Shown here piece by piece: positions 15,837 through 53,865 of a stretch of 64,000 nt of DNA (position 1 is the stretch's first letter; the number at the start of each line of letters is the position of its first letter). The position numbers and the translations under genes are program-made. Under the pieces are notes generated by a model, which ran no database searches, was not told the origin of the DNA, and saw only the letters and a list, made by a program, of their open reading frames with translations. The stretch is taken from assembly GCA_021228405.1 (NCBI GenBank), contig JAJQRF010000001.1, positions 1-64,000 on the forward strand. The letters are read 5' to 3'. The DNA is from Pyrinomonadaceae bacterium (GTDB lineage: Bacteria > Acidobacteriota > Blastocatellia > Pyrinomonadales > Pyrinomonadaceae).

Positions 15837-16015
15837 ATCGATTTACGCGAATTTTCTCAAAATTATCTGATTTTCTCCAAATTTATGGATTTTTCGGCAA
15901 ATTTCCGAGATTTTTCACGGATTTATGAGAATTTGCGCAAATTCAGCTGATTTTTCGCAAATTTAGACGATTTTCCTCGAATTTGGCAATTTTTTCGTAA
16001 CTTCATTGATTTAAT
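15837..16015. repeat. Array A: 20-bp degenerate tandem repeat with 10-bp phased T-tracts
   Basis: About nine head-to-tail units of 20 bp. Each unit has two half-units beginning ATTT or TTTT, and the T-tracts fall every 10 bases almost without drift from 15841 to 16011. A typical unit is GATTTTTCGCAAATTTAGAC. Such phasing of A/T tracts with the helix predicts intrinsic bending. It fills the spacer between a GT4 gene and the permease gene. Units differ at many positions, so the array is old or is held by a function that tolerates variation. Confidence 0.8.
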
Positions 16016-16058
16016 CTCTTCGTTTTAACTCCGCCGAATTAAGTTTTATAATTGCTGA

Positions 16059-17156
16059 ATGCTCGAATTGGTTTTAGCAAATCTGAGAGTCCGCCCGTTT
16101 CGCACGCTGATTAGCGTGGTCGGGGTCGCGTTGGGCGTGGTTCTCGTCGTTTTATTTACCGGCTTGGCGAAGGGAATGTCGGAAGATATGGTCAAACGCG
16201 CCTCGAACTGGAAGGCGGAGATAGTGTTCACGCGCCCGGGCGGAATGGATGCTTCAAGCTCGAACACTTCTCTTTCAACGACTTATGCCGAACGGCTTTT
16301 GCAGATCGAAGGCGTCGAATCGACCGTTCCCGTCATTCGCTATATCACGCCGAACCCGAAACAGCGTTGGGGCGTTCAGCAGATCGACGGCATCGATTGG
16401 GAACCATTCGCAAAAATGAACGATATGAAGCTCGTGCAGGGACGCGGCGCAACAGCAGTCGATGAAGTGATTTTGGACGAAAGATACGTCAAGGACGAAA
16501 AAGTAAAACTCGGCGATAAGATCGGGATTTTCGGCAAAAGCTACACGGCGGTCGGCGTTTTCTCGCCGCCTTCGGGTGCGCGCATCAAGATGTCGCTTTC
16601 CGCGATGCAGAATGCGCTCGAAGCCCCGAATAAATGTTCATACATTTTAGTTAAATTGAAACAGGGCGCGAACGTTGACGAAGTAGCGGCGCGAATCGAT
16701 CAGGCTTTGCCCGGAAATAAGATAAATTTAACGAGAGATTTAATCATCGACGCGCAAGACCGGATTCCCGCACTCGGCACGTTTTTACGCGTTTTGGTCG
16801 GCTTGGGCGCGTTCGTTTCGACGATCTTCGTCCTGCTTTCGATGTATACGACGATCACCGAAAGACGCAAGGAAATCGGGATTTTGAAATCGCTCGGCGC
16901 GTCGAAAGGCTTCATCATCAAAGTTATCGAAGGCGAGGCATTTCTGATCGGCGTGCTCGGCGTTTTGCTCGGTTTCATCGTCGCTTTCGCCGCGTCTTAT
17001 CTGATCGGCGATTTCTTTGAATTGGTTTTCAGCTTCAGTTCGGGCTGGATCATCACGGCAACCGTCATTGCCATCGGCGGAAGTCTGTTCGGCGCGCTTT
17101 ATCCCGCGTGGAAGGCATCGGGAATCGATCCGGTCGAAGTGATGGTCAATGAATAG
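16059..17156 (+). CDS. MacB/FtsX-type ABC transporter permease
   Basis: 365 residues with the usual order: an N-terminal helix (VRPFRTLISVVGVALGVVLVVLFTGL), a periplasmic MacB-like domain (about 50-235), and three C-terminal helices of the FtsX domain (near 245-350, including KEIGILKSLGASKGFI). The protein ends YPAWKASGIDPVEVMVNE, the classic C-terminus of the family. These permeases couple ATP hydrolysis to movement of lipids, lipoproteins or peptides in the envelope without being pores. No ATPase gene is next to it, so the partner must be encoded elsewhere. Confidence 0.88.
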   Translation: MLELVLANLRVRPFRTLISVVGVALGVVLVVLFTGLAKGMSEDMVKRASNWKAEIVFTRPGGMDASSSNTSLSTTYAERLLQIEGVESTVPVIRYITPNPKQRWGVQQIDGIDWEPFAKMNDMKLVQGRGATAVDEVILDERYVKDEKVKLGDKIGIFGKSYTAVGVFSPPSGARIKMSLSAMQNALEAPNKCSYILVKLKQGANVDEVAARIDQALPGNKINLTRDLIIDAQDRIPALGTFLRVLVGLGAFVSTIFVLLSMYTTITERRKEIGILKSLGASKGFIIKVIEGEAFLIGVLGVLLGFIVAFAASYLIGDFFELVFSFSSGWIITATVIAIGGSLFGALYPAWKASGIDPVEVMVNE

Positions 17157-17157
17157 T

Positions 17158-17373
17158 TCAGCCTGTTATCAGGATTTTCATAATCAGAAAGATCGTCAGG
17201 GCAACGGCGAAATTTCTGGCGAAACTCTTTATTTTTTCGTTTTGCGAAAGCGTCAAAACAGCGGTGAGAAGCAGTAAAATTGAAACGATGCAACGATTGA
17301 AATCGTAAAGATCGAAATTGTAGATAGCGGCAAAAATACAGAAAAGAGCTAAAAGAATTTCGATAAGTTTCAT
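17158..17373 (-). CDS. Small membrane protein, two predicted helices
   Basis: 71 residues: MKLIEILLALFCIFAAIYNF, then a second hydrophobic block ILLLLTAVLTL and a third near the C-terminus (VALTIFLIMKILI). A ribosome-binding site (AGAGGTGA) stands 3-4 bases before the ATG, which argues for a real gene. It is convergent with the permease gene (one base apart) and divergent from btaA. No family recognised. Confidence 0.5.
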   Translation of the reverse strand: MKLIEILLALFCIFAAIYNFDLYDFNRCIVSILLLLTAVLTLSQNEKIKSFARNFAVALTIFLIMKILITG

Positions 17374-17409
17374 AAATCACCTCTGACTGATTTTTAGTTT
17401 ATACAAAAT

Positions 17410-18648
17410 ATGAGTTCGGAACAAGATTTAGTTCTCGGCGCGGTCAGACAAAAAGACGCGACCAAAAAACAAAGCATTTTGCAGAAACTTTTCGCCGTTT
17501 GGTTTGACGCGTTCGTTTACAATCAAATCTGGGAAGACCCGCGAGTCGATCTGCAAGCCTTGAAATTAGACGAAAATTCGCGCGTCGTGACGATCTCTTC
17601 GGGCGGCTGTAACGCGCTCAATTATTTGCTCGAAAATCCCGAATCAGTCACCGCCGTCGATCTCAATCGGCATCATATTTACCTGCTCAATCTAAAGATC
17701 GCCGCGCTCAAATCCTTGCCCGCTTACGAAGACTTTTTCGGCTTTTTCGGTTACGGCAAAAGCGAAAAAAACATCGCCAACTACGAAAAATTCGTCGCGC
17801 CTGCGCTGGATGCCGACACGCGCAAATTTTGGGAATCGAATTCGGGATTGAGCAAAATCCGTCACGGCAAACGCATCAATTTTTTCAAAAAAGGCGGGCT
17901 TTACGAACATTCGCGCAACGGTTATTTTCTGCGTTTTTTCCATAAATTCTCGCATCTTCTCGGATTGAAACCAGAAGAAGTCTTAAAAGCGAAAACGGCG
18001 GAAGAACAGAAAAAACTCTATGCGAAATACATCGACCCGTTTTTCGATACGTTCTTTATCAAAACCGTCGGCAAATTGCCTGTGACGATGTTCGGCTTGG
18101 GAATCCCGCCTCAGCAATACGACGAATTGAAGAAGGATTTAAGCGAAAACACCAGCATTATCGACGTTTACCGCGAACGCACGAAACGCCTTGCGACCGA
18201 TTATCCGATCTACGAGAACTACTTTGCATGGCAGGCTTTTGCCCGCAAATACGACACCGAAAACCGTCAGGCGATTCCCGAATATCTAAAGCAGGAAAAC
18301 TACGAGAAACTAAAAGCGAACGCCGAAAAGATAAACACGAAAATCGGTTCGATCACGGACGAGATCAAAAACAAACCGCAAAACGCGTTCAATCGTTTCA
18401 TCTTTTTGGACGCGCAGGATTGGATGAATTCCGAAACAATGACCGATCTTTGGAAGTCAATTTCAGAAAAGGGCGAAAAAGATTCACGGATAATTTTCCG
18501 AACCGCCGGCGCAAGCTCGCCGATCGAAACGAATTTACCGAAAGATTTGTGCGAAAAATTCGTTTACGAAAAAGAGTTTTCAAAAGAACTTTTCAAACAA
18601 GACCGCGCTTCGATCTACGGCGGATTTCATTTATATTTGCTGAAATAA
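17410..18648 (+). CDS. btaA: BtaA-like S-adenosylmethionine:diacylglycerol 3-amino-3-carboxypropyltransferase
   Basis: 412 residues of the DUF3419/BtaA family, close to the family's usual length. BtaA moves the aminocarboxypropyl group of S-adenosylmethionine to diacylglycerol, the first step to the betaine lipid DGTS. The start FAVWFDAFVYNQIWEDPRVDLQAL and the SAM-binding stretch VVTISSGGCNALNYLL followed by VTAVDLNRHHIYLLNLK are typical. The end (FLDAQDWM...IIFRTAGASSPIE) fits the second half of the family. It is followed after 2 bases by an NTF2-like gene and then a methyltransferase of the BtaB type, which supports the assignment. Betaine lipids commonly replace phospholipids under low phosphate. 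Confidence 0.85.
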   Translation: MSSEQDLVLGAVRQKDATKKQSILQKLFAVWFDAFVYNQIWEDPRVDLQALKLDENSRVVTISSGGCNALNYLLENPESVTAVDLNRHHIYLLNLKIAALKSLPAYEDFFGFFGYGKSEKNIANYEKFVAPALDADTRKFWESNSGLSKIRHGKRINFFKKGGLYEHSRNGYFLRFFHKFSHLLGLKPEEVLKAKTAEEQKKLYAKYIDPFFDTFFIKTVGKLPVTMFGLGIPPQQYDELKKDLSENTSIIDVYRERTKRLATDYPIYENYFAWQAFARKYDTENRQAIPEYLKQENYEKLKANAEKINTKIGSITDEIKNKPQNAFNRFIFLDAQDWMNSETMTDLWKSISEKGEKDSRIIFRTAGASSPIETNLPKDLCEKFVYEKEFSKELFKQDRASIYGGFHLYLLK

Positions 18649-18650
18649 AT

Positions 18651-19115
18651 ATGGAAAACGAACAATTAATTCGCACATTTTACGAAGCATTTGCGCGAAA
18701 CGATGCCGGGGCGATGGTCGCGTGTTACCACGACCGAATAGAGTTTTCCGATCTGGCGTTCGGTTCGTTGAAGGGCGAAGACGCGAAAAATATGTGGCGA
18801 ATGCTCGTCGAACGCGCCAAGGGAAATATTAAAATCGCGTTTTCAAATGTTGCCGCAGACGGCGAAAAAGGCTCGGCTGATTGGGTTGCGGATTACGCTT
18901 TCAGCAAAACAGGCAGACAGGTTCATAACGAAATTCACGCCGAATTTGAATTTAAGGACGGTAAAATCTTTCGCCATCACGACACATTCGACATTTGGAA
19001 ATGGTCGAAACAGGCATTAGGTCTAAGCGGAACTTTGCTCGGTTGGTCAAGCTTTATGCAAAATAAAATCCGCCAAAGCGCGCTCGAATTGCTCAGAGAA
19101 TACGGCAAAAAATAA
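18651..19115 (+). CDS. NTF2-like (SnoaL-type) protein inside the betaine-lipid cluster
   Basis: 154 residues from the ATG at 18651, two bases after the btaA stop. ENEQLIRTFYEAFARNDAGAMVACYHDRIEFSD, then WRMLVERAKGNIKI and HAEFEFKDGKIFRHHDTFDIWKW, is the NTF2/SnoaL alpha+beta barrel pattern. The fold serves enzymes and binding proteins of many kinds, so no reaction can be named. Its tight packing between btaA and the methyltransferase gene suggests co-translation, and perhaps a role in handling a lipid intermediate. Confidence 0.8.
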   Translation: MENEQLIRTFYEAFARNDAGAMVACYHDRIEFSDLAFGSLKGEDAKNMWRMLVERAKGNIKIAFSNVAADGEKGSADWVADYAFSKTGRQVHNEIHAEFEFKDGKIFRHHDTFDIWKWSKQALGLSGTLLGWSSFMQNKIRQSALELLREYGKK

Positions 19116-19116
19116 A

Positions 19117-19803
19117 GTGAGTTCCAAACCGATCCAAAATCCGAAATCCAAAACCCAAAATCCTTTCGAGAAAATGGATAAAATGTATCGTCACCAACGA
19201 TACTTTTACGATCTGACGCGTAAATATTATCTGCTCGGACGCGACAAGCTGATCGCGGAAATGAAGATTTCCGACGGTGAAAACATTCTCGAAATCGGGT
19301 GCGGGACGGCGCGAAACTTGATAATTCTCGCCGAAAAATATCCGGAAGCCAACTTTTTCGGACTCGACGCTTCGGCGGAAATGCTCAAAACCGCGCAATC
19401 TAAGATCGATGCGAAAAACATCAAAAATATCACGCTTAAAACCGCGCTCGCCGATGATTTCAGGTTCGATAAAACCTTTGCTCTGAACGCAAAATTTGAT
19501 GCGATATTTTTCAGTTACGCCGTTTCGATCATTCCGCCATGGAAAGAATCGATTGAAAATGCGCTCGAAAATCTGAAAACGGGCAAGACGCTTTACATTG
19601 TCGATTTCTACGATCAAGCCGATCTGCCGAAATGGTTTCGTAAATTATTGACTTCGTGGCTCAAACAATTTCACGTTAAATATCCCGAAGAGTTACTGCC
19701 GTTTCTGGAAGATTTAGAAAAGAAAGGTATCGGAAAATTAAACATCAAACCGCTCTATAAAAGGTATTCGGTTCTCATCGAACTGCTTAAAGTCGTGAAA
19801 TAA
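19117..19803 (+). CDS. btaB: BtaB-like S-adenosylmethionine-dependent methyltransferase
   Basis: Up to 228 residues from GTG 19117. A start at ATG 19174 (MDKMYRHQRYFYDLTRKYYLLGRD) is also possible and would remove 19 residues encoded by a low-complexity run of CCAAAATCC-type repeats. Motif I is ILEIGCGTARNLIILAEKYP, followed by FFGLDASAEML. BtaB trimethylates the amino group of the homoserine lipid to complete DGTS. The assignment rests on the family resemblance and on its position two genes after btaA. Confidence 0.75.
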   Translation: MSSKPIQNPKSKTQNPFEKMDKMYRHQRYFYDLTRKYYLLGRDKLIAEMKISDGENILEIGCGTARNLIILAEKYPEANFFGLDASAEMLKTAQSKIDAKNIKNITLKTALADDFRFDKTFALNAKFDAIFFSYAVSIIPPWKESIENALENLKTGKTLYIVDFYDQADLPKWFRKLLTSWLKQFHVKYPEELLPFLEDLEKKGIGKLNIKPLYKRYSVLIELLKVVK

Positions 19804-20174
19804 TTGATGAATTATGCCACAACCCGGCGCAATAGTTGATGAATTATGCCACAAATCTCTCTGACTGACCTTAATTCTTTCTAAACCTGCTATTTTTTTA
19901 TTCATATCCATTTTTTTGCAGATTTAATTATTTTTTTGTAAAGATTCTATTTATTTTTCAATTGGATATATTCCGCTCATCTCCCGGATGCGGTTCAGCT
20001 TATACCTTTATAACTATTATCTAAACTTATGCTTTTTGTCGATTTAGCTTAACGCTTCCGTCTGCCGCAATGAATTAACTCCCTGTTAGGAATAGCTATT
20101 GCTTAGATAACAATAGATTATACCCGGCAATACTTTTAGAAGAGTATATTTATCAAAAGCACAAGGAGACAAAA
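19804..20174. other. Intergenic region with a 19-bp direct repeat
   Basis: TTGATGAATTATGCCACAA occurs twice, at 19804-19822 and 19836-19854, 32 bases apart. The rest is AT-rich and must hold the promoter of the receptor gene at 20175, which has the ribosome-binding site AAGGAG. I see no gene. Confidence 0.55.
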
Positions 20175-27093: not shown

Positions 27094-27315
27094 TAATTAC
27101 ACGTGTTTTTGTCGATTTTCATCCGTTTTTTAGAATTTCCTTCTGTTAGCGCCGATTTTCACGTGTTTGTGATGATTTTCATCGTGTTTGTGACGATTTT
27201 CATCCGTTTTTAGCGATTTTCATCCGTTCGCGGCGATTTTCACTCTGTCGGGGACGATTTTCATCCGTTTTTGGCGATTTTCACCTGTTGGCGGCGAATT
27301 TCATTTATTTTTGTC
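27094..27315. repeat. Array B: 20/21-bp degenerate tandem repeat, GATTTTC type
   Basis: Ten head-to-tail units. The core GATTTTC (GAATTTC in two) starts at 27114, 27133, 27154, 27174, 27195, 27215, 27235, 27256, 27276 and 27296, so the spacing alternates between 20 and 21 with one 19. The consensus is about GTTNNNGRCGATTTTCAYCY. It lies between the acidic-protein gene and the lysS tail fragment. The 20/21 alternation keeps the units on the same face of the helix. Confidence 0.85.
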
Positions 27316-35039: not shown

Positions 35040-36095
35040 ATGAAATTTATCAACTCCGCAATTTTTTCGATTGCAGTAATTTTAATTTTGAATCTTTCCG
35101 CCTTTGCGCAGGAAACACAGGTCAAGGTCGTCGATGAGGTCGTCGCCGTTGTCAACGACGGTGTGATCACACTTTCACGCATCAAACGCGAGATGAAAAG
35201 CGTCGTCGATTCGTTCGTTGCCGAAGGCAAACCGCGCGAAGAAGCGGAAAAATTGGTCGAAGAAAAGAAAGGCGAATTGATCGCAGGTCTAATCAACGAA
35301 GAGCTTTTGATTCAAAAAGCCAAGGAAGCCGGTTTGGATAAAGAGATCGATGCGAATATCAACCAGAGATTTATTGATATTATGAAACAGCAAAATATCA
35401 AAACCATCGAAGAACTTTATCAGGTGATGGAATCGCAAAACGTCAACCCGCAGGAAATCCGTGAAATCTGGCGCAAACAGGCGACCCGCGAATCGGTTAT
35501 CAACCGCGAAGTAAATTCAAAAATTTATTGGGGCGTAAGCTCGAAAGATTTGAAGGAATATTTTGAAAAGAACAAAGAAAAATTTACCAAGCCCGAAAAA
35601 GTTACTTTAAGCGAGATTTTCCTGAGTTTTGCCGGACGCAATGAAGCCGCCGTCCGCGAAAAAGCGAAACAGCTTGTCGCCCAGCTGAAAGGGGGCGCGG
35701 ATTTTCAAAAACTCGCCGTCGAAAACTCCGACCGTGAAAATGTCGCGCAAAATAAAGGAAAGGTCGATACTTTTACGGTGAAAGACCTCGATCCGAAATT
35801 TGCCGTTGCCATCAAGGATTTGAAAGCGGGCGGAGTCACGGAACCGGTCGAGATCGATCAGGTCGGCATCGAAATTCTTCGCGTCGATGAAAGAACCGCC
35901 GCGAGCAACGAGTCGTTTTTCGACGAAAACGCCGTCCGTCTGGCGTTGATGCAGGAACGCGCTCCGGCTGAACAAAAGAAATTTATGTCAACCCTGCGTC
36001 AGGAAGCATACATCAAGATCAACGACGAATATCGCCCGATCGTTTCGCCGATTCTTTTTGCCGACGAAAGACGCGCCGAAAAAACCGATAAATAA
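35040..36095 (+). CDS. SurA-like periplasmic peptidyl-prolyl isomerase/chaperone
   Basis: 351 residues. A signal peptide ends near residue 23 (SAFAQ). A SurA-type helical N-domain follows (EVVAVVNDGVITLSRIKREM, with GELIAGLINEELLIQKAKE). A single parvulin/rotamase domain occupies about 175-290 (KPEKVTLSEIFLSFAG, KQLVAQLKGGADFQKLAVENSD, GKVDTFTVKDLDPKFA). Such proteins help outer-membrane proteins fold, which fits the large barrel proteins in this window. A good ribosome-binding site (AAGGAG) lies 8 bases before the ATG. Confidence 0.88.
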   Translation: MKFINSAIFSIAVILILNLSAFAQETQVKVVDEVVAVVNDGVITLSRIKREMKSVVDSFVAEGKPREEAEKLVEEKKGELIAGLINEELLIQKAKEAGLDKEIDANINQRFIDIMKQQNIKTIEELYQVMESQNVNPQEIREIWRKQATRESVINREVNSKIYWGVSSKDLKEYFEKNKEKFTKPEKVTLSEIFLSFAGRNEAAVREKAKQLVAQLKGGADFQKLAVENSDRENVAQNKGKVDTFTVKDLDPKFAVAIKDLKAGGVTEPVEIDQVGIEILRVDERTAASNESFFDENAVRLALMQERAPAEQKKFMSTLRQEAYIKINDEYRPIVSPILFADERRAEKTDK

Positions 36096-36170
36096 CTGAT
36101 AACTGATAACTGATAACGGAAAATGGAAAATGATTCAAAAATTTTCCATTTTCCGTTTTCCGTTTTACAC
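36093..36170. repeat. Heptamer repeats forming a perfect 15-bp hairpin
   Basis: AACTGAT occurs three times, followed by CGGAAAATGGAAAAT (36117-36131), whose exact inverse ATTTTCCATTTTCCG lies at 36141-36155 with a 9-base loop. T-rich sequence follows. It may also serve as terminator of the SurA-like gene. Confidence 0.75.
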
Positions 36171-39025: not shown

Positions 39026-39139
39026 TTTATTCTCCTCTCTTCATAAAAATTAGATTGCCGCTAAAACTTTAAATAATATTCATCCGGCTTTACGCTCAAT
39101 TAATATTTTGTAGAACTCACCTCATATATATTTTTTAAG

Positions 39140-39202
39140 CGTTCAGAGTCCCGCCTTCAGGCGGCGATGCTTAGAAAAAAAGTCTTCTAAGGAACTCTAA
39201 AC
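39140..39202. repeat. Inverted-repeat element, GAGTCCCGC family, copy 3
   Basis: GTTCAGAGTCCCGCC (39141-39155) on the left and GGAACTCTAAAC on the right form the ends. The first 26 bases are an exact inverted copy of 26648-26673, 12.5 kb away. Confidence 0.72.
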
Positions 39203-39235
39203 TTGGAACAAAACATTTTCATTGCGTTTCGCAAG

Positions 39236-39424
39236 ACTCATATGGACTGTGGCGTTTCCATCTGGACTGTCGCATTTCCATCTGGACTGTCGTATTTTCA
39301 TCTGGACTATGGCGTTTCCGTCTGGACTGTTTTGTTTTCGTCTGGACTATAGTGTTTTCATATAGACTGTGCCGTTTTCGTATAGCCTGTGCCAAGCTCG
39401 TTTAGACTCTAAGATTTCCATTTT
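39236..39424. repeat. Array C: exact 20-bp period tandem repeat, TCTGGACTGT type
   Basis: Nine units of exactly 20 bases. The GGACTGT element or its variant starts at 39244, 39264, 39284, 39304, 39324, 39344, 39364, 39384 and 39404. A typical unit is CATCTGGACTGTCGCATTTC. The middle units are the most alike and the last two are decayed. It lies between the XRE gene and the carboxypeptidase-regulatory-domain gene, both on the minus strand, ending only about 10 bases from the latter's stop. Confidence 0.88.
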
Positions 39425-39434: not shown

Positions 39435-40226
39435 CTAATGATTGATGCCGAAAATCTGCTCTTGAAAATAGTTTCGCTCCAAAAACCCGAGATATTTATC
39501 TCGCACCTCGTTGTAATTGTCGGTTTGCTGTTTGAGCACCAATTTAAAGGGCTTCGTCTGCGCATCGAGGATAAAAATCCCGGAATCGGCGATGCCCGTG
39601 ATGACGGGCGGCGCGGTCATAAAAGGTTCGGGGTCTTTTTCAAACATAATCGCGCGGATTTGATATTGGCGGTCGGAAAAAGCGTTTAGCGAAAAGTTTC
39701 CGGCTTTATCGGTCTTTACCACGCCGAACGAAACGCCGAAACCGCCCGTGATGCCGCGCAAACCGATCCACGCTTTGAATGCCGGATTTCCCTTTTCATT
39801 TACCACTCTTCCACTCACCCTTTGAACGCCGAGCGCGGGCGGCGCACGAAAAACGATCGTTTGCGGCGGAGTTTTTTCGTCGATCGTGAACACTTCGGCT
39901 TTTTCGCGTTCGGCTGATTGAGGGTAAAACGTCGTCACAAAAGGTGAAAGTATCGACGGGTTTTCGTCGAAATTTATGCTCAAAGTGTATTTTCCTTGCG
40001 GCAGACGAAACGTAAACAAGCCCGACGCGCTCGTGGTCACATTCATTCGCGGGTCGATGACGATCTTGTCGGATTCGACGGGAACCATTTCGATCTCCGT
40101 GTAAGCGAGCGGCGTTCCGTCGGATTTTAATAATTTCCCGCGAATTTGCGCGGAACTTTGGCTGAAACTTGCCGAAAACAAAAGCAGGAATAATGCGAAA
40201 AAGGCGGTAAAAATCTGATTTTGCAT
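39435..40226 (-). CDS. Secreted protein with two carboxypeptidase-regulatory-like domains
   Basis: 263 residues. A signal peptide (ending SSAQ) precedes a first beta-sandwich (IRGKLLKSDGTPLAYTEIEMVPVES, then SGLFTFRLPQGKYTLSINFDE). A second one begins VSGRVVNEKGNPAFKAWIGLRGI and has DKAGNFSLNAFSDRQYQIRA. Such domains bind or decorate envelope proteins; here no enzyme domain follows. It is divergent from the Oar-like receptor at 40483, which has the same kind of N-terminal domain, so a link is possible. Confidence 0.7.
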   Translation of the reverse strand: MQNQIFTAFFALFLLLFSASFSQSSAQIRGKLLKSDGTPLAYTEIEMVPVESDKIVIDPRMNVTTSASGLFTFRLPQGKYTLSINFDENPSILSPFVTTFYPQSAEREKAEVFTIDEKTPPQTIVFRAPPALGVQRVSGRVVNEKGNPAFKAWIGLRGITGGFGVSFGVVKTDKAGNFSLNAFSDRQYQIRAIMFEKDPEPFMTAPPVITGIADSGIFILDAQTKPFKLVLKQQTDNYNEVRDKYLGFLERNYFQEQIFGINH

Positions 40227-43679: not shown

Positions 43680-43902
43680 AAAACACCGTGCAAGTGCCTC
43701 GGTGCGGCTTGCAAGCGTCGTGGTGCGCCGTGCAAGTGCCTCGGTGCGCGTTTTTTCGTCGTGGTGCGGCTTGCAAGTGCCTCGGTGCGGACTGCAAGCG
43801 TCGCGGTGCGCCGTTTAGTGACGTGGTGCGGACTGCAAGCGTCGTGGTGCGGGATTTTTTAACGTGGTGCGCCGTGCAAGTGTCGCAGTGCGGATTTTTT
43901 CA
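43680..43902. repeat. Array D: 20/21-bp GC-rich tandem repeat, GGTGCG type
   Basis: Ten units; GGTGCG (AGTGCG in the last) starts at 43701, 43722, 43743, 43763, 43784, 43805, 43825, 43846, 43866 and 43887. Spacings are 21, 21, 20, 21, 21, 20, 21, 20, 21. A typical unit is GCAAGTGCCTCGGTGCGGCTT. Two sub-types (GCAAGTGCCTC and GCAAGCGTCGT) tend to alternate. Some units have the left half replaced by a T-run. It lies between the receptor and a coiled-coil gene on the same strand. Confidence 0.88.
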
Positions 43903-44718: not shown

Positions 44719-44784
44719 GTCAGCAGCCCGCGCGTAAGCAAAGGCTGAAAAATGTTAACCCTTGCTTACGCGCGGGCTACTGAC
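44719..44784. repeat. 26-bp inverted repeat with short loop
   Basis: 44719-44744 and 44759-44784 match as inverted copies at 24 of 26 positions (GTCAG.AGCCCGCGCG...); the loop is 14 bases. It is directly upstream of the TPR gene, so if transcribed it would form a very stable structure in the leader. Confidence 0.82.
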
Positions 44785-44836
44785 ATATCGCAGTTTTTTG
44801 TTAATAATTAATCTGTCCATCTGCTTACAGACAATT

Positions 44837-46708
44837 ATGACCAACGCAATCAATTTAGACGGCGACGATAATATCGTCGTTCAAGGTTCCGAAAACGTAA
44901 ATATTACCGTCAACAAGATTCTCTCGAAATCGCACGACTACAATACAATGCTCGGCGAATTGCGCGAACAGCAGGAAATATTCGACGGCATCTCGGAAGA
45001 AAATTTGAGTCTGCGACTGAAAATCAGCACAAAGATAAATCAGTTAAACGACAGCATCGAACAATTCAAACGCGAGATCATCCAATTAGCCGAAACCTTC
45101 GACAAGCTCGAAGTAAACAGCGAACGACTTCAGCAAGCCCGCGAATTCTTTGAAAAAGGCGAGATCGGCGAAGCCCGCGCCCTGCTCAACGACGACAACG
45201 AAAGACTCGCCGACGAAGAAACCCAACTCTGGCGCAAACGCGACTATTACGAAACCGAGATCGAACCCAAACTAATCGCCAAAGCCGAAGAACGCTATAT
45301 CCAAGCCTTACTCAGCCGAACCGATTACGCCAACCCGAACTGGTTCGCCGACACCCGCAACTATTTCAACCTTTCGATCAAAAGCTACCCGACCAAAGAT
45401 AATATTTTTCAATTTGCATACTTTCTCAAAGACCATAATCAATTTGATGAAGCCGAAAAATATTATTCAAAATATCTGAATGATTTTTCAAACCAAATCT
45501 CGGAAAACGAATACGCAGATGCCTTGAACAATCTGGCTAATTTGCATCGAAATCAAACCCGTTATGACGAAGCCTTGACGGAATTTGAAGAAGCGTTGGC
45601 AATCAGACGCAAGTTGGCGGAAACGAATCCGAACACCTTTTTGCCTGATGTGGCGATGACCTTGAACAATCTGGCTATTTTGCATCAAGCTCAAAACCGC
45701 TATGACGAAGCGTTGAGTGAATATGAAGAAGCCTTGACAATCTATCGCAAGTTAGCGGAAACCAATCCGCATACTTATTTACCTAATGTTGCCACGACCT
45801 TGAACAATCTGGCTGTTTTGCATCAAGCTCAAAACCGCTATGACGAAGCGTTGACGGAATTTGAAGAAGCGTTGGCAATCAGACGCAAGTTGGCGGAAAC
45901 GAATCCGAACACCTTTTTGCCTGATGTGGCGACGACCTTGAACAATCTGGCTATTTTGCATCAAGCTCAAAACCGCTATGACGAAGCGTTGCGTGAATAT
46001 GAAGAAGCCTTGGCAATCTATCGCAAGTTGGCGGAAACCAATCCGCAGACCTTTTTGCCTTTTGTTGCCACGACCTTGAACAATCTGGCTATTTTGCATG
46101 CCGATCAAAACCGTTATGACGAAGCCTTGAGCGAATATGAAGAAGCCTTGGCAATCTATCGCAAGTTGGCGGAAACCAATCCGCATACTTATTTGCCTTT
46201 TGTGGCGATGACCTTGAACAATCTGGCTGTTTTGCATGCCGATCAAAACCGCTATGACGAAGCCTTGAGCGAATATGAAGAAGCCTTGGCAATCTATCGC
46301 AAGTTGGCGGAAACCAATCCGCATACTTATTTGCCCGATGTGGCGATGACCTTGAACAATCTGGCTCTTTTGCATCAAGCTCAAAACCGCTATGACGAAG
46401 CCTTATGCGAATATGGAGAAGCTTTAGAGATTAGAGAATCATTGGCGGAAACCAATCCAATGGTTTATAAAGTTAAAGTTGCTCAAACCAATTATAATCT
46501 GGCAATACTTTATCAAGACGATTTGCCTGATCGTGATAAATCTATTTCGTATGTTTTAACGACTATTGCGATTCTTTTAGAAATCTCGGATGTAGTTATT
46601 TATACAAGGAAATATTTGGAAGCCTCTATTAACATTCTGAAAAAATGGGGTTTGAGCGATGAAGAAATTGACCGAATGATCGCGGAAAAGATGAAAGAAA
46701 GTGAGTAA
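44837..46708 (+). CDS. Tetratricopeptide protein with seven near-identical 46-residue repeats
   Basis: 623 residues from the ATG at 44837. The start INLDGDDNIVVQGSENVNITVNKIL is a short beta element of the kind (DGDNIVIQGV...ITVN) often seen at the N-terminus of multi-domain bacterial conflict or signalling proteins; this is an inference from resemblance. A charged helical region follows (about 45-160). Then come kinesin-light-chain-type TPRs of 46 residues (NNLAILHQAQNRYDEAL.EYEEALAIYRKLAETNP) whose DNA starts at 45524, 45662, 45800, 45938, 46076, 46214 and 46352, exactly 138 bp apart. The copies differ little, so they were multiplied or homogenised recently. No signal peptide. Partner unknown. 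Confidence 0.8.
   Translation: MTNAINLDGDDNIVVQGSENVNITVNKILSKSHDYNTMLGELREQQEIFDGISEENLSLRLKISTKINQLNDSIEQFKREIIQLAETFDKLEVNSERLQQAREFFEKGEIGEARALLNDDNERLADEETQLWRKRDYYETEIEPKLIAKAEERYIQALLSRTDYANPNWFADTRNYFNLSIKSYPTKDNIFQFAYFLKDHNQFDEAEKYYSKYLNDFSNQISENEYADALNNLANLHRNQTRYDEALTEFEEALAIRRKLAETNPNTFLPDVAMTLNNLAILHQAQNRYDEALSEYEEALTIYRKLAETNPHTYLPNVATTLNNLAVLHQAQNRYDEALTEFEEALAIRRKLAETNPNTFLPDVATTLNNLAILHQAQNRYDEALREYEEALAIYRKLAETNPQTFLPFVATTLNNLAILHADQNRYDEALSEYEEALAIYRKLAETNPHTYLPFVAMTLNNLAVLHADQNRYDEALSEYEEALAIYRKLAETNPHTYLPDVAMTLNNLALLHQAQNRYDEALCEYGEALEIRESLAETNPMVYKVKVAQTNYNLAILYQDDLPDRDKSISYVLTTIAILLEISDVVIYTRKYLEASINILKKWGLSDEEIDRMIAEKMKESE
45524..46489 (+). repeat. 138-bp tandem repeats within the TPR gene
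   Basis: Seven copies with an exact 138-bp period. The stretch TTGAACAATCTGGCT opens each copy without change. Variation is limited mostly to a few codons (HQAQ/HADQ/HRNQ, AIRRK/AIYRK, NTFLPDV/HTYLPFV). Confidence 0.9.
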
Positions 46709-46715: not shown

Positions 46716-46792
46716 CGTGTTCAGAGTTCAAAGTGCGTTCCGCGTTTGGACTTCGCTTAGTGATTCAAACTGAAGTTTGAACTGCGGAACAC
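46716..46792. repeat. Inverted repeat after the TPR gene
   Basis: CGTGTTC...GTTCAAA on the left and TTTGAAC...GGAACACG on the right are inverted. Inside lies the palindrome TCAAACTGAAGTTTGA (46765-46780), related to the inverted repeat at 15773-15829. Confidence 0.55.
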
Positions 46793-46840
46793 GTTTAGGC
46801 TTCAAAATTATGGTCTGTTGAAAATAAATCTAACAATCGC

Positions 46841-47005: not shown

Positions 47006-47101
47006 CTTTCAGAACTTTTATGTTAATTTTATTTTATTACCGTTTCGGCAGCTTTACCTTTCATCAGCCGGCTTTCAGAACTTTTATGTTAATTTTATTT
47101 T
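47006..47101. repeat. 30-bp perfect direct repeat
   Basis: 47006-47035 and 47072-47101 are identical (each begins CTTTCAGAACTTTTATGTTA and ends in an AT-rich run). They are separated by 36 bases and directly abut the nested palindrome. Confidence 0.85.
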
Positions 47102-47131
47102 GAACAAAACTTTAGTTTGAATTGACTAAAC

Positions 47132-47166
47132 AAAAGGTCGCCGAACTTATTCGGCGACCTTTTTTA
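47132..47166. terminator. Bidirectional terminator
   Basis: AAAAGGTCGCCGAA and TTCGGCGACCTTTT form a 14-bp stem with a 4-base loop. It is close to the stop of the DUF4920 gene on the minus strand. Confidence 0.88.
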
Positions 47167-47185
47167 ACTTTTAATTTTTAACTTT

Positions 47186-47710: not shown

Positions 47711-47748
47711 ATTTTTACGATCTGCTCCTTGATAGAATGATTTCAAAA

Positions 47749-49281: not shown

Positions 49282-49751
49282 CAATTATTTTCTTCTTTCA
49301 TTTTTTGAAAATAGACTTTTCCCGATTTGGCTTTCGGGTCGATCGAAGGCGTGAATTTGCTCCAATATGTGAGAATTTGCTCTTTGCCTTTGACGGCTTT
49401 CTTTTCGAGCGTGAGAAGCAGATCGCCCTGCGCGTATTTTTCAAACATATTGTCTTCGCCGTAGCTGTCAAAGTAGATCAGCAGTTTGTTTCCCTGAACT
49501 TTCGCGGTGCAGTTCAGATCGATCGACGTTTGATAACCCGCGCTTGTAATCCTTGCGATCAAACCGTCGTCAGTTTCCGTGATGTCGAGTTGGTGCGAAA
49601 TGAAAACCGCCGTTCCGCCAGCCGTTTTGCCGCCGTCTTCGGCGAAATCGTATTTGCCGACCCAATCGCTCTGCGCGTTTGCCGCGATGCAGAAAACTAA
49701 TGTGATTAATAAAATTGCCGTGTTTTTAAGTATAAATTTCATTATTTCCAT
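49281..49751 (-). CDS. Small secreted beta-rich protein (DUF5991-like)
   Basis: 156 residues from ATG 49751, or 153 from the ATG at 49742, which overlaps the upstream stop as TAATG. A signal peptide (ending ANAQ) precedes DWVGKYDFAEDGGKTAGGTAVFISHQLDIT, then a Cys-containing strand (IDLNCTAKVQGNKLLIYF) and a basic C-terminus. The pattern resembles DUF5991; I am only moderately sure. It is coupled on both sides, to the caspase-like lipoprotein and to the amidohydrolase. Confidence 0.65.
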   Translation of the reverse strand: MEIMKFILKNTAILLITLVFCIAANAQSDWVGKYDFAEDGGKTAGGTAVFISHQLDITETDDGLIARITSAGYQTSIDLNCTAKVQGNKLLIYFDSYGEDNMFEKYAQGDLLLTLEKKAVKGKEQILTYWSKFTPSIDPKAKSGKVYFQKMKEENN

Positions 49752-50587
49752 CCTGTTACGAGTAAATTTTGCGCCGCTTTCTGGCTGATTCGCTGATATT
49801 TTGCGTAAGCCGCCGCCGCGCGTGTTTGAATCTGCACGTCCGTTTCACCGTTTACCCAACCTTCGAGCGCGTCGTGCAGAATATAGGCTTCGGGAGCCAT
49901 CAGGTTTGATGTCCAAAGCAACGGATTGGCGGAAGTTTTTTTCAAAGGTTCGGTAAAATAACTGCGGCTGGCGCAAGCCAGAATCACGGCATCACGTTCG
50001 TCGTCGTCAAACTTTTTCGGCTGATCTTTCAAGTCAAAATCCATCAAACCGTTATGCCCGACAAACGCGACGAGATTTGCGCTTCCCAAAATTTGCAGTT
50101 TTGTGCCTTTGATTTCAACGTTTTCGCGTTGCTTGCCCGAAACCGCCGCGAAAAAATCGTCGATGGTTTCCTTCATTTTGCTTCCGCGGTAAGCGTCGGC
50201 GACGAGATAAACGTTTTGCGTTCGGTGTTTGAAAACAATTCGCTGCAAAACGTTTTCCTTTGGATTTTCGATCCCGGCAAGCTTTTCCCAGTTTCGGCTT
50301 TTACCGAAATAGGTTTTCACGCCGTAAGCCGCGCCCCAATAAAGGTTTTTCTTCGTATCTTCGCCGTCGCCGAGAAATGACGGAACCGGCACGATTCCCT
50401 GATTTTCGTTATCGCAAAGCGCGACGAGAACGTGGACGACTTTGCCCGGATTTTGGATTTTTGCAACTGTTTCGTTTTTCTGTTCGTTTTTTGTAAGTGG
50501 TTCGGAATTATTAATTTGCGCTTTTGTGCAACCGCAAATACCCAAAATTGATACTAAAAGCAGGGCGAAAATTTTAAGGTTTGACAT
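49742..50587 (-). CDS. Lipoprotein with a caspase-like His/Cys pattern
   Basis: 281 residues from the ATG at 50587; a Met four codons upstream is also possible. The signal MSNLKIFALLLVSILGICGC has the lipobox Cys at residue 20. The mature part alternates strands and helices: VVHVLVALCDNENQG, QNVYLVADAYRG, ANLVAFVGHNGLMDF and DAVILACASRSYF. The His in GHNG and the Cys in LACAS stand where the catalytic dyad lies in clan CD peptidases (caspase fold). This is an inference from the pattern. First gene of a run of three overlapping genes. Confidence 0.6.
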   Translation of the reverse strand: MSNLKIFALLLVSILGICGCTKAQINNSEPLTKNEQKNETVAKIQNPGKVVHVLVALCDNENQGIVPVPSFLGDGEDTKKNLYWGAAYGVKTYFGKSRNWEKLAGIENPKENVLQRIVFKHRTQNVYLVADAYRGSKMKETIDDFFAAVSGKQRENVEIKGTKLQILGSANLVAFVGHNGLMDFDLKDQPKKFDDDERDAVILACASRSYFTEPLKKTSANPLLWTSNLMAPEAYILHDALEGWVNGETDVQIQTRAAAAYAKYQRISQKAAQNLLVTGWK

Positions 50588-50630
50588 TGAAAAATCCATC
50601 TCTCAAACTGATTCAGGCGAAATTATAGCA

Positions 50631-51158
50631 ATGAAAGAAAAATATCTCCAGATTTTCGGCATCGCTTTGACCGTTTTTTACGGTCTGTTCGTTGCCTGGA
50701 TTTACATTGCCGAACCGAAAAATTTGACCGAATTGCCGACCAAAGCGCAGGAAACCATCGAAAAAGCGACGACGACGGCGCAGGTCATCACGAACACTTA
50801 CGAAATCGACCGGACTAAATTCAACGAAGGCTTAACGGCTTTCCGCAATGATAATTTCCTCGTTGCGCGTGACAGTTTTGCCAAAGCCGATCCTGAAAAT
50901 CGCGACGCTAAAACCCAATATTACATCGCTTACAGTTTTTACAGGCAAGGTTTCGGCAAAGTTTCAAACGACGACGAGCTTTTCAAAAAAGGCTTGGAGC
51001 AAGTCAATAAAGTGATTCAACTGGACAAAAATTTCAAATCGGACGACGCAAATCTGCAATTGAAAACGCCAGTCGAACTGAAAAACGAATTTGAAGAAGG
51101 CTTGAAAGTTACGCCGAGCGATTTCAATCCGCTCAAGGTTTTCCGCGAACGGAAATAA
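50631..51158 (+). CDS. Small membrane-anchored TPR-like protein
   Basis: 175 residues from the ATG at 50631. An N-terminal helix (YLQIFGIALTVFYGLFVAWIYIA) anchors it. The rest is a helical repeat with FNEGLTAFRNDNFLVARDSFAKADPENRDAKTQYYIAYSFYRQG and LEQVNKVIQLDKNFKSDD, which is TPR-like. Partner unknown. It diverges from the lipoprotein gene. Confidence 0.6.
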   Translation: MKEKYLQIFGIALTVFYGLFVAWIYIAEPKNLTELPTKAQETIEKATTTAQVITNTYEIDRTKFNEGLTAFRNDNFLVARDSFAKADPENRDAKTQYYIAYSFYRQGFGKVSNDDELFKKGLEQVNKVIQLDKNFKSDDANLQLKTPVELKNEFEEGLKVTPSDFNPLKVFRERK

Positions 51159-51160
51159 AA

Positions 51161-51191
51161 GGTCAGAACCGTCTGCGGCAGCGGGAGGGTT
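51161..51191. repeat. Fragment of the mfd palindromic element
   Basis: GGTCAGAACCGTCTGCGGCA, continuing GCGGGAGGGTTA, matches one arm of the in-frame element in mfd (31577-31663) with few changes. Only one arm is present here. Confidence 0.6.
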
Positions 51192-51203
51192 ATAGTTTAG
51201 AAA

Positions 51204-51998
51204 ATGGAAAATACGCCGATAAACAAATCCGAATTGACCGATTCAAACGATTTTCAGATCGTTGACGGCGAGCTTCTCGACGTTTCGAGCGGCGCGGAGA
51301 TCGAACAATTCGACGAAGAAAAGACCATCGTTCACGCCAAAAACCAAAAACCAAAAACCAAAGACCAAAAACCGAATTCGACCAATCAAAAGACTTATCT
51401 GCTTTTACCGTTTCTGTTTCTGACGGTCGCGCTTTTGGGCGGTTTGCGGTTTTCTTCGCCCGATAATGCTTTTGTTTTTTTGCGTCCCGCGCTCGTTTGT
51501 CTGATCTTTGCGGCGATTCTGCTGTTTTTGTTTGCGCGGGCAAATTTGATAAAACTCGAAGGCTGGTTTTCGGAAGATTTTTCGAGTTTGAAGAATGCCG
51601 CCAATGCGTCGGTGATAATTACGCTTTTTGCGGCTTCGGTGCAGGTTTTCAATTCTCTTTTGCCCGAACGCGGTTTCCCGTTTTGGGTCGTCGCATTCTG
51701 TTTTTTCTGGACGCTTTGGAACAATATTTTCGCCGAATTCGACACGAAAAAGCTGATAAAAAGCCTCGGCGCGATGTTCGGTTTGGCGTTTGTGGTGAAA
51801 TATCTGGTGCTGGCAAATCTGACCGCCCCCGCGAATGAAAGCTGGCTGAAATCGCTCTGGGAAAATCCGGCGCAGGAGTTTTTTACAAATATTTTCGATC
51901 TTCCGCGTTTCGCGGCGGCAACGGGTTATGTGCAGTTTTTTACGCTGATCTTTTATTTGATCGGCTTGTTCTTATTACCGAATTCAACGAAGAAATAG
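51204..51998 (+). CDS. Multi-pass membrane protein with a repeat-encoded linker
   Basis: 264 residues. A polar N-terminal 45 residues is followed by a stretch encoded by AACCAAA-type heptamers (51340-51380; read as NQKPKTKDQKPN). Then come six or so hydrophobic segments (LLLPFLFLTVALLGGL, PALVCLIFAAILLFLFA, SVIITLFAASVQVF, FWVVAFCFFWTLW, FTLIFYLIGLFLL). No family recognised. It begins 46 bases after the TPR-like gene. Confidence 0.6.
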   Translation: MENTPINKSELTDSNDFQIVDGELLDVSSGAEIEQFDEEKTIVHAKNQKPKTKDQKPNSTNQKTYLLLPFLFLTVALLGGLRFSSPDNAFVFLRPALVCLIFAAILLFLFARANLIKLEGWFSEDFSSLKNAANASVIITLFAASVQVFNSLLPERGFPFWVVAFCFFWTLWNNIFAEFDTKKLIKSLGAMFGLAFVVKYLVLANLTAPANESWLKSLWENPAQEFFTNIFDLPRFAAATGYVQFFTLIFYLIGLFLLPNSTKK

Positions 51999-52087
51999 AA
52001 CGCGGATTGGGCAGATCGGGCAGATTAAAACGGATTATTTATTTAAGATTGTCCTGTAAATCCGTCTGATTCGCCCAATCCGTGTTC
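51998..52087. repeat. Inverted-repeat element, GAACGCGGATT family, copy 3
   Basis: The left end GAACGCGGATTGGGCAGATC and the right end TCTGATTCGCCCAATCCGTG form a long imperfect hairpin of 90 bases. It begins at the last base of the upstream stop codon and ends 10 bases before the next start. Confidence 0.78.
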
Positions 52088-52096
52088 CCGAACTAT

Positions 52097-53611
52097 ATGA
52101 AATTCAATTTTTTGTTTTTATTCATTTTTCTTTTTTCGATCAATGCTTTCGCGCAATCGCCGAGCAAAGTTTTGAAGCAAGCGGAAAAGGCTTTGGGCGG
52201 TGCGAAAATTTTGAAAACCGTTCGTTCGTGGCAGAAAGTCGGCAAAATAACGCGTATCAAAGACGGCGCGGAAGGAAACTTTATCGAACAGGTTTCACAG
52301 CCGAATCTTTATAATATTGCCTACGATTTCGGCGGTTTTGAAACGGAAAAAGGCTTTAACGGCAAATCGAGTTGGGCGCGTGATTCGCGTGAAGGATTGC
52401 AGACTTTGACCGGCAGACAAAGCGTCGATTTTCAGGCGGAAGCCGATTTTCGCAACACGCTCTGGCTCGATTACAAAAAGGATAAATCGAAGATCGCCGC
52501 CGCCGGAAAAGCCGATGTCAACGGGAAATCCGCCAACGCGATTCTTCTGACGACCGCGAAAGGCGTTTCCGTCAAGCTTTATTTCGACGCGGTTTCAGGT
52601 CTTTTGATTCGTGAAGAATTTCCCTTCGGCGACGACAAAATGAGCTTCGATTACGACGATTTTCGCGCCGTCGGCGGCGTAAAAATCCCGTTTTCGACCA
52701 AATTTCAGATCGCCGATGAAAAGTTCGAGATCAGGCTCGACGACGTAAAGATCAACCCGCAGATCGCCAAAGCGGAATTCGATTTTCCGAAACTTTCAAA
52801 CGAACCGCTTCCCGACATTGCCGCGCTTCTCAAGGAATTGCAGGCGAACGAGGACAAAGTCGAAGAGCTTCTGGACAAATATTCGTTCACGCAGAAAAGC
52901 ACGAAACGCGAACTCGGCAAAGACGGAATTTTGCGCGAAACCGATTCGGAAACGACCCAGCTTTCGTTTTACAAAGGCTATCGCATTGCGCGTGTCGTCG
53001 AGAAAAACGGCAAGCCTTTGAGCGAAAAGGAACAAAGAGAAGAAGACAAGGAAGTTCAGAAACGCGTCGAGGAGATCGAAAAGAAAATTGCCAAACAGGA
53101 AGCCAAAACCGTTCAGCAGTCTTCGACCGGAACGCCCGACGAAGAAGGCAGACGCGTTTCGATCGCCGAAGTTTTGCGGGCTTCAAATCTCGTCAATCCG
53201 CGCCGTGAACGTTTTCGCGGGCGCGACGTGATCGTTTTCGATTTTGAACCGAATCCGAATTTCGATTACAAAAACGCGAAAAGTTTTCTGAAATTTTTCG
53301 GCAAAACCGTCGGCGTGATGTGGATCGACGAAAAAGACAAACAGGTTGCGCGCATCGAAGCGGTTTTGGCGGACAGCTTCAATGTCGGCGGCGGCGTGCT
53401 CGCGAAACTTCGGAAAGGCGCGTCGTTCACGCTCGAACAGGAGCGCGTCGGCAACGAAATCTGGCTTCCGTCGGTCGCGGACATCAATTTATCGGTTCGC
53501 GTCCTGCTCGTCAAAGGAATCGATATTAATCAATTAATCAAGTCTTACAACTACCGAAAATTTGAAACCGAAGTGAAGGACGCGAAGGTGGATGAAGTCA
53601 AAAATCAATAG
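52097..53611 (+). CDS. Secreted LolA-like (outer-membrane lipoprotein-sorting type) protein
   Basis: 504 residues from the ATG at 52097. A signal peptide (ending AFAQ) precedes VLKQAEKALGGAKILKTVRSWQKVGKITRI, then repeated strand pairs (GVSVKLYFDAVSGLLIREEFPFGDDKMSFDYDDFRAVGGVKIPF) of the kind found in LolA/LolB-like and zinc-protease-associated proteins. The second half carries a charged helix (EEDKEVQKRVEEIEKKIAKQEAK) and another strand block. It may carry lipid or lipoprotein, but there is no direct evidence for that. Confidence 0.65.
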   Translation: MKFNFLFLFIFLFSINAFAQSPSKVLKQAEKALGGAKILKTVRSWQKVGKITRIKDGAEGNFIEQVSQPNLYNIAYDFGGFETEKGFNGKSSWARDSREGLQTLTGRQSVDFQAEADFRNTLWLDYKKDKSKIAAAGKADVNGKSANAILLTTAKGVSVKLYFDAVSGLLIREEFPFGDDKMSFDYDDFRAVGGVKIPFSTKFQIADEKFEIRLDDVKINPQIAKAEFDFPKLSNEPLPDIAALLKELQANEDKVEELLDKYSFTQKSTKRELGKDGILRETDSETTQLSFYKGYRIARVVEKNGKPLSEKEQREEDKEVQKRVEEIEKKIAKQEAKTVQQSSTGTPDEEGRRVSIAEVLRASNLVNPRRERFRGRDVIVFDFEPNPNFDYKNAKSFLKFFGKTVGVMWIDEKDKQVARIEAVLADSFNVGGGVLAKLRKGASFTLEQERVGNEIWLPSVADINLSVRVLLVKGIDINQLIKSYNYRKFETEVKDAKVDEVKNQ

Positions 53612-53617
53612 AAAATC

Positions 53618-53651
53618 AAAAAGGAGAACTCGCAAGAATTCTCCTTTTTAC
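53618..53651. terminator. Terminator after the LolA-like gene
   Basis: AAAAAGGAGAA pairs with TTCTCCTTTTT around a short internal loop, 10 bases after the stop codon. Confidence 0.82.
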
Positions 53652-53700
53652 CGTTAAAATTGATCGACAGTCATTCGTAATAATTCGAGTCAGACGTTGG

Positions 53701-53865
53701 GAATTTGTCGAATTCCGCGGGAATTTGCTAAATTCTCGCGGAATTTGACGATTTCACGCGGAATTTGACGATTTCCCGCGGAATCTGGTAAATTCCCGCG
53801 GAATTCGGCAATTTCCCGCTGTTTTCGGCAAATTCCCGCAGAATTTGACGATTTTTACGGAATCG
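53701..53865. repeat. Array E: exact 20-bp period tandem repeat, GAATTTGACG type
   Basis: Eight full units begin at 53701, 53721, 53741, 53761, 53781, 53801, 53821 and 53841 without any drift; a ninth (GAATCG) is cut. A typical unit is GAATTTGACGATTTCCCGCG. It lies between convergent genes and runs into the last codons of the C25 peptidase gene, whose stop codon (53855-53857) is inside the final unit. Confidence 0.88.

Follow-up and report, generated by a model that had tools for sequence, protein, structure and literature searches.

Within a window of 64,000 nt of the genome of a Pyrinomonadaceae bacterium (the whole stretch of DNA analysed here), five spacers between genes contain arrays of head-to-tail units which have a common period of 20-21 bp but different unit sequences. 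The question is what keeps the period when the sequence is not kept. All five arrays are confirmed at the positions given in a preliminary description (Table 1). Their best self-matches at lags 15-45 are 0.59 (A), 0.58 (B), 0.72 (C), 0.60 (D) and 0.70 (E), compared to shuffle maxima of 0.44-0.50, and none of 2000 Markov shuffles of each array reaches the observed value.

Table 1. Repeat arrays of the window and a hairpin next to array E
Feature	Position	Strand	Description
Array A	15837..16015	.	period of 20 bp; trimming leaves about 8 units; consensus TA.g.GATTTTtCgCAAATT
Array B	27094..27315	.	mixed 20/21-bp steps; core GATTTTCA; spacer co-directional according to our own gene calls
Array C	39236..39424	.	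20-bp period; 9 units; core CTGGACTGT; no dyad
Array D	43680..43902	.	core GGTGCG; steps 21,21,20,21,21,20,21,20,21; no dyad
Array E	53701..53865	.	20-bp period; 8 units; dyad GGAATTTG.CAAATTCC
Hairpin resembling an intrinsic terminator	53618..53649	+	AAAAAGGAGAA...TTCTCCTTTTT; follows the gene ending at 53611 and precedes array E; found by eye, missed by the automatic finder

Arrays A, C and E indeed step by exactly 20 bp, and in C the match stays constant over the lags (0.72, 0.68 and 0.71 at 20, 40 and 60). The reported mixture of 20 and 21 bp was found in both B and D, and B additionally has a single 19-bp step between 27114 and 27133. A loose core GRCGATTTYC had been proposed for A, B, C and E; the profile similarities A-B and A-E are above the 99% null, but C is absent from the 25 best pairs listed. 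Array A is flanked by the genes of a glycosyltransferase and an ABC permease, both on the plus strand, array C is located directly 3' of the gene 39435-40226 (minus strand), and array E sits between convergent genes ending at 53611 (plus) and 53855 (minus). In line with the preliminary description, no cas, rep or transposase domain was detected among 10 nearby proteins scanned with Pfam, and the degenerate head-to-tail units are not separated by spacers. CRISPR was rejected on the latter grounds, since unique spacers are lacking.

Each of the five arrays has relatives elsewhere in the same genome. They were found at C7:308711-308834 for A (69% identity), at C20:74641, C6:262637 and C7:320720 for B, at C5:14854-14946 for C (84% identity), at C18:363025-363170 for D (89% identity, with an identical step pattern that is shifted by one unit), and at C18:179908, C19:263056 and C4:896366 for E.

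The original observation is right, and it is larger than first reported. Our survey of 1.18 Mb of the genome, including 130 kb of intergenic DNA, revealed 42 intergenic arrays with a 20- or 21-bp period, a few of which may be coding, since our own hexamer-based ORF calls miss some genes (in E. coli they missed gfcA, and one coding repeat there looked intergenic). The intergenic arrays have a median of 11 units, with 4-24 units per array as determined by leave-one-out trimming, and ten of them have the 20-bp period; 12 more arrays lie within predicted genes. By extrapolation, about 200 arrays are present in the chromosome. They are much rarer in the genomes of relatives, and divergent spacers hold some of the weak calls there as well as one call of 19 units in the more distant genome L102.

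The autocorrelation of the intergenic DNA is raised at 21, 42, 63, 84, 105 and 126 bp, and also at lags 7 and 14, while lags 28 and 35 show no such rise. Deviations were seen in only 15 of 399 unit steps, but mismatches to the consensus at 2698 of 9180 positions. Over 38 arrays a second harmonic near 10.5 bp was found in the purine profile (0.228 vs. 0.100) and the keto profile (0.170 vs. 0.101), whereas that of A/T was not significant (p 0.11; the harmonic tests number 15 and their p-values are uncorrected). The earlier suggestion of a period more conserved than the sequence, and of a possible importance of helical spacing, is thus supported, while the curved DNA considered along with it is a weak option. 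There is no consensus shared genome-wide, and profile similarity is above its 99% null in 49 of 703 array pairs.

The arrays are also unevenly located. Among spacers of at least 200 bp, arrays are borne by 15 of 33 between convergent genes, by 24 of 150 between co-directional genes and by 2 of 79 between divergent genes (one long array was entered in two spacers). Dyad symmetry of the unit consensus was found in 25 of the 42 intergenic arrays and in none of the 12 genic arrays. In the window the dyad is found in E alone, and A, B, C and D belong to the 17 intergenic arrays without a significant dyad. The dyads, the avoidance of divergent spacers and the relatives of each window array were not part of the preliminary description.

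The explanation that we favor, tentatively and with somewhat less than even confidence, is that the arrays are selected DNA-level elements, which would serve in promoter-free spacers as phased platforms to which a dimeric protein, or one that wraps DNA, would bind. Each would offer a short core, in many cases a dyad, in about 8-15 copies, and because the spacing of 20 or 21 bp corresponds to two helical turns, the cores would all face the same side of the helix. The protein would load co-operatively along the array, in promoter-free DNA behind genes and chiefly between convergent genes, and could thereby insulate neighboring transcription units, block read-through or handle supercoils at converging genes. 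Sites for a nucleoid protein, which had been offered as one possible role, are in this sense retained as a candidate reading. Our search yielded no candidate for the binding protein: the genome has three HU-type genes, as do 9 of the 11 other members of the bacterial family searched, and a histone-fold gene was not found. Against this explanation also stand the differences in core between array families, all of which a single sequence-specific protein would be unable to read, the 17 intergenic arrays without a significant dyad and the scarcity of arrays in relatives.

A serious rival, which we regard as quite possible if somewhat doubtful, is that the arrays are neutral or selfish degenerate minisatellites, the units being made by slippage or local recombination and the arrays being spread by copying. 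Their survival would be limited to promoter-free spacers and thus they would gather after genes; avoidance of promoters would explain the scarcity in divergent spacers equally well. Duplication of units is evidenced by periods of 42 and 63 bp and by alternating unit types, the relatives of the arrays are dispersed in the genome, and unit number varies in the A family (about 8 vs. 10) and in the B family (12 and 8), while C and D are equal to their relatives. Further, segments inverted in place occur in 8.5% of the unit pairs, a share that falls to 2.7% when columns are shuffled and to 2.6% in the reverse-only control. Inversion was favored over pairing in only 16 of 23 arrays by our own count, and the evidence that the dyads arose by inversion in place is suggestive only.

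Minisatellites do not easily account for a family of eight diverged arrays in which the 21-bp register is kept at 43-74% identity. Scored against a profile built from the remaining members, 11-13 units exceed 5 bits in seven members and 9 units in the eighth, while the off-phase mean is about -17 bits, and the gaps in five gapped pairwise alignments are confined to the leader or lie near the end of one array. In three independent pairs the core columns changed several-fold more slowly (12 of 144 cells, 8%) than the other columns (208 of 612 cells, 34%), and cores picked from held-out members gave p-values of 2e-3, 2e-4 and 1e-4. The unit contains a variable four-base stretch flanked by conserved TC and GA, which is unlike the outcome of tract conversion between units. 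In close pairs, units at the same place are more alike than shifted ones (for example 0.72 vs. 0.52), and homogenisation is therefore slow there, whereas in distant pairs the two values are equal (for example 0.45 and 0.46). The kept register and the slow core argue for selection acting on geometry plus a small core, with the rate evidence coming from this one family.

A variant of the preferred platform reading, which we consider unlikely, would be a purely geometric DNA element. The about 200 sites would then be defined by the two-turn spacing and often a dyad and not by sequence. A single protein of architectural or topological function, for instance a nucleoid protein or a wrapping topoisomerase, would read them, with the cores drifting in each family.

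It is improbable that the arrays act as RNA elements, i.e. that they are transcribed at the 3' side as hairpin arrays which terminate transcription or protect the mRNA. The position after genes fits this option, which was also raised in the preliminary description, and 29 of 38 arrays fold more than 2 deviations better than column-permuted copies; this gain is, however, accounted for by the dyads. The sense strand folds better in 17 of 22 co-directional arrays (p 0.013), but the bias does not differ significantly from that of array-free spacers (p 0.18). A crude finder, used without control, detected a terminator-like site on either strand in 19 of 42 arrays. With the same finder, which missed the hairpin listed in Table 1, terminators were present in 9 of 42 gene-to-array gaps and at 147 of 552 array-free 3' ends, suggesting that the arrays neither replace nor require terminators.

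The covariation is not convincing either. Over 23 arrays, the value for one hairpin type was 0.565, both observed and expected, and for the other 0.575 vs. 0.572; in the eight-member family the paired cells amount to 75.5% vs. 75.2% and 70.1% vs. 69.3%. Local pairing over the 23 arrays, no better than that of random units, is expected if the half-sites are independent. One of ten covariation measures was raised in this family (25 intra-unit double-changed cells vs. 17.6; 15 of 500 shuffles). When columns 3 and 15 were compared in a two-by-two test, neighboring units had p 0.015 but one control offset had p 0.008, and such p-values are thus unreliable in this material. Local hairpins with compensatory change were rejected, except for unit 1 of the family, the compensated palindromes of which could not be generalised. 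There was no Rfam match at gathering score in the window.

It is very improbable that the arrays are coding repeats with units of seven codons, whether decayed or hidden: 21 bp would fit, 12 of 54 arrays lie inside predicted genes, our gene calls overlook some genes, at least one of six frames is open in 14 of 28 long 21-bp intergenic arrays, and the mostly transitional changes in columns 3, 15 and 18 of the eight-member family resemble two-fold codons, but the period is 20 bp in ten intergenic arrays, none of the 31 intergenic arrays with a 21-bp period gave a third-position signal (the positive control is itself weak, the signal being present in 1 of 10 genic arrays), and 3-8 stops interrupt the fitting frame in seven of the eight members, one being stop-free. 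RNA hairpins, a coding origin and known repeats are not supported.

Bacterial spacers are commonly interpreted via sequence motifs. The most constant property of the arrays is their periodicity, which is outside the scope of motif and RNA-family searches. Spacing that is held while the sequence drifts may indicate a type of DNA landmark that has gone unrecognised, and not plain junk repeats. If a protein reads the arrays, they would be a directly testable chromosomal landmark, defined by DNA geometry and placed at the ends of converging transcription.

Among the open-licence PMC papers listed by our searches, none describes such arrays in its title or in the opening of its abstract. REP and BIME elements have a role connected with gyrase and are located after genes. 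According to the excerpted part of PMC3733652, REPs are extragenic palindromes of 20-40 bp, are present in many copies, fall into few sequence families and have proposed roles in supercoiling and termination. The arrays are similar in being extragenic and numerous and, in many cases, palindromic, but their cores are family-specific and the period is what stays constant. They share with REPs the location after genes and the rarity in divergent spacers; a common consensus was not found, and dyads are present in 25 arrays vs. 17 without.

Plasmid centromeres such as pSK41 parC contain 20-bp tandem repeats bound by ParR. Like these and iterons, the arrays have about two turns per unit, sites on one face and half-sites, and co-operative loading would be possible; in contrast, they are chromosomal, numerous by extrapolation, and their many cores are unrelated. 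The 10 flanking proteins scanned with Pfam contained neither a rep domain nor a par domain of the parR/parM type. Separately, the Mfd protein had only matches below 60% identity in a plasmid collection. Cyanobacterial heptamer STRR and LTRR are short tandem repeats in spacers. The spacer location, the presence of heptamers in the window and the raised lags 7 and 14 recall them, but lags 28 and 35 are flat here while the 21-bp multiples are raised.

Last, a survey of prokaryotic satellites (PMC6749651) required internal regularity and, in the part available, gives group medians of 0-3 satellites per Mb, a few species such as Leptospira interrogans having dispersed satellite families with long repeats. 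The arrays are likewise non-coding tandem repeats in dispersed families, and, as in the satellite definition, all have four or more tandem units with a length in the range 10-200 nt; they differ in being degenerate and in their positional rule. With about 35 degenerate arrays per Mb and a strong preference for one period, they would stand out against the medians obtained in that survey under stricter rules even if they were nothing more than satellites.

The period of 20-21 bp reported preliminarily for the five intergenic arrays of the window (A to E, listed below) is real: none of 2000 shuffles of each array matched the observed value. The exact 20-bp steps described for A, C and E were found again, and so was the mixture of 20- and 21-bp steps in B and D, B having one 19-bp step as well. 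In array C the unit match is flat with distance (0.72, 0.68 and 0.71 at 20, 40 and 60 bp).

Repeats and genes of the window, with relatives of the arrays elsewhere in the same genome (C-handles)
Feature	Position	Properties	Relatives
Array A	15837-16015	dyad p 0.07	C7
Array B	27094-27315	no dyad; poorly phased under a 20-bp model	C20, C6, C7
Array C	39236-39424	no dyad	C5
Array D	43680-43902	no dyad	C18; short pieces elsewhere
Array E	53701-53865	only window array passing the dyad test (column permutation)	C18, C19, C4; those at C19:263056 (L284) and C4:896366 (L281) are mosaics of E-like units and GTAACGTTAC-type palindromes
REP-like palindrome	39130-39215	core CCGCCTTCAGGCGG; adjoins array C; 47 genome matches at E<=1; also adjoins arrays at C7:61296, C7:78151 and C7:353372	
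Short heptamer tandem repeats	19132, 25250, 26160, 29719, 29763, 30233, 30625, 30665, 36092-36166, 43366, 47162, 51337	sequences differ	
138-bp tandem repeat	45518-46422	6.6 copies, 88% match; 46-residue units within ORF 44762-46708	
Peptidase C25 (gingipain-type) gene	53855-56512	matches in 15 of 30 genomes searched, this one counted; 17 in one genome	

For a census, 1.12 Mb outside the window was added, so that two unbroken blocks (664 and 520 kb) covered about 21% of the genome. A stringent scan for any period yielded 79 periodic stretches versus none in one Markov shuffle. The intergenic autocorrelation (130 kb) is highest at lag 21, followed by 42, 63, 105 and 84, with 126 equal to 12; smaller peaks exist at lags 7, 14 and 20, the last being 3.7 robust deviations over the median. 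With a finder tuned to 20/21 bp, 64 candidates were obtained versus one in one shuffle, and trimming left 54 arrays with at least four units, 42 of them intergenic and 12 inside genes predicted by our own ORF calls. The intergenic arrays have period 21 (32 arrays) or 20 (10 arrays) and contain 4-24 units each (median 11). Scaled up by proportion, the whole genome may harbour about 200 arrays.

The arrays are located preferentially behind genes. Among spacers of at least 200 bp, arrays occur in 15/33 convergent, 24/150 co-directional and 2/79 divergent ones, one long array that falls in two spacers being counted in both (Fisher, each class versus the rest: convergent p 1e-5, divergent p 3e-5). 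Since spacer length is in part a product of the array itself, all adjacent gene pairs were recounted, and arrays were present in 16/124 convergent, 25/708 co-directional and 2/124 divergent pairs. In co-directional spacers the median gap is 85 bp from the end of the upstream gene and 137 bp to the start of the downstream gene.

Unit sequence is array-specific, except within families of relatives. Tested by column permutation, the unit consensus is significantly dyad-symmetric (p at most 0.05) in 25/42 intergenic versus 0/12 genic arrays, and 22 of the 42 reach p 0.01; examples are GGAATTTG.CAAATTCC, GCAGAAA...TTTCTGC, ACCTA....TAGGT and TTCTCC...GGAGAA. Register is kept better than sequence, with 15 of 399 unit steps deviating versus 2698 of 9180 positions off consensus. 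In the unit profiles of 38 arrays, power near 10.5 bp is about twice the expectation for purine (p 0.005) and keto (p 0.014), and the equal excess for A/T is not significant (p 0.11), these being three of 15 uncorrected tests.

Signs of constraint come from a larger dispersed family, eight arrays of 21-bp period, in which a common T- and A-rich leader is followed by GARTY/RAYTC units. Its start pattern occurs at seven places in the genome with at most three mismatches and at none when read backward; a shorter version was found, with two mismatches, in one other genome among 59. Scored with a profile from the other seven members, 13, 13, 13, 13, 12, 11, 11 and 9 of 13 units in exact 21-bp register reach at least 5 bits, while units preceding the first give at most 2.7 bits and the off-phase mean is about -17 bits. 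Gapless identity between members is 0.43-0.74; in gapped alignments of five closer pairs, two have no gap, two have leader gaps and one has 5-base gaps near the array end. In three independent pairs, 12/144 cells changed in four core columns versus 208/612 in the other 17 (p 2e-3, 2e-4 and 1e-4 with core columns picked from other members). A variable four-base stretch lies between conserved TC and GA, which is unlike the expected outcome of tract conversion between units. From this one family, we take a small core and the register to be under selection.

A function at the level of RNA finds little encouragement. In 23 arrays, local pairing within a unit and between adjacent units is at the level seen for randomly chosen pairs of units. 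Under two hairpin schemes for the eight-member family, 75.5% and 70.1% of cells are paired versus 75.2% and 69.3% in shuffles; of ten measures only double-changed cells in the second scheme are raised (25 versus 17.6; 15 of 500 shuffles). RNAalifold gives this family a covariation term of just -0.76, with a double change in some sequence at 17 of 51 predicted pairs. An exception is unit 1 of this family, with the compensated palindromes GGAACCGAGCTCGGTTCC and GGAGTCTAGCTAGACTCC. Terminator-like hairpins are not enriched ahead of arrays (9/42 gaps versus 147/552 array-free gene ends); 19/42 arrays contain a terminator-like site on either strand, a count without control. Independent variation of half-sites would be compatible with a protein reading each half-site on DNA.

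In the main rival reading, the arrays would be a satellite that evolves slowly. That units have been duplicated is clear from periods of 42 and 63 bp and from the alternation of unit types, and unit number is variable in two families. After trimming, it differs between A and its relative (8 vs 10) and between B and its relatives (the latter with 12 and 8), and is equal for C (9 vs 9) and D (12 vs 12); the C18 relative of D also keeps the step pattern 21,21,20,21,21,20,21 with a one-unit shift.

We favour the view that the arrays are phased DNA platforms to which a dimeric or wrapping protein would bind in promoter-free DNA behind genes, where they could act as insulators, roadblocks or topological sites. 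Because cores differ between families, a single sequence-specific protein is disfavoured, leaving several proteins or one reader of geometry. Three HU-type genes are present in this genome, likewise in 9/11 other family members searched; no histone-fold gene was found in 18 genomes searched.

In the named genome collection the window's LysS protein matches Pyrinomonadaceae and other Acidobacteriota (Blastocatellia), with 69-71% identity at best, and none of the 59 relatives listed belongs to the same genus. In relatives, 78 loci around LysS (1.18 Mb in all) give an intergenic spectrum that likewise tops at 21, followed by 7, 14 and 42, and a period of 21, 42 or 63 is shown by 10 of their 34 intergenic arrays. 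The 7- and 14-bp lags are elevated in relatives too. A finer scan gave 11 intergenic arrays, about seven of them clear, with 13 units at loci L129 and L136; the call at L124 is made of heptamers, and those at L181 and L186 (two at the latter) are weak. No clear array lies in a divergent spacer; both L186 calls do. Two GC-rich relatives have 22-bp arrays at gene edges, missing from the finer scan's intergenic list. For seven other relatives, the stretches scanned contain two arrays, one or none with a period of about 20-22 bp or double that; a 19-unit call (L102) in the most distant of the seven lies in a divergent spacer. Given these sparse calls, the class is thinly spread among relatives and rich in this genome.

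In the consulted part of PMC6749651, prokaryotic satellites have group medians of 0-3 per Mb, and transposed non-coding satellite families with long repeats are given for Leptospira interrogans and Methanocella conradii only. Among the open-licence PMC papers listed in literature searches, no title or abstract opening describes such arrays. The systems with which they can be compared are ParR/parC, iterons, BIME-gyrase, STRR and LTRR.
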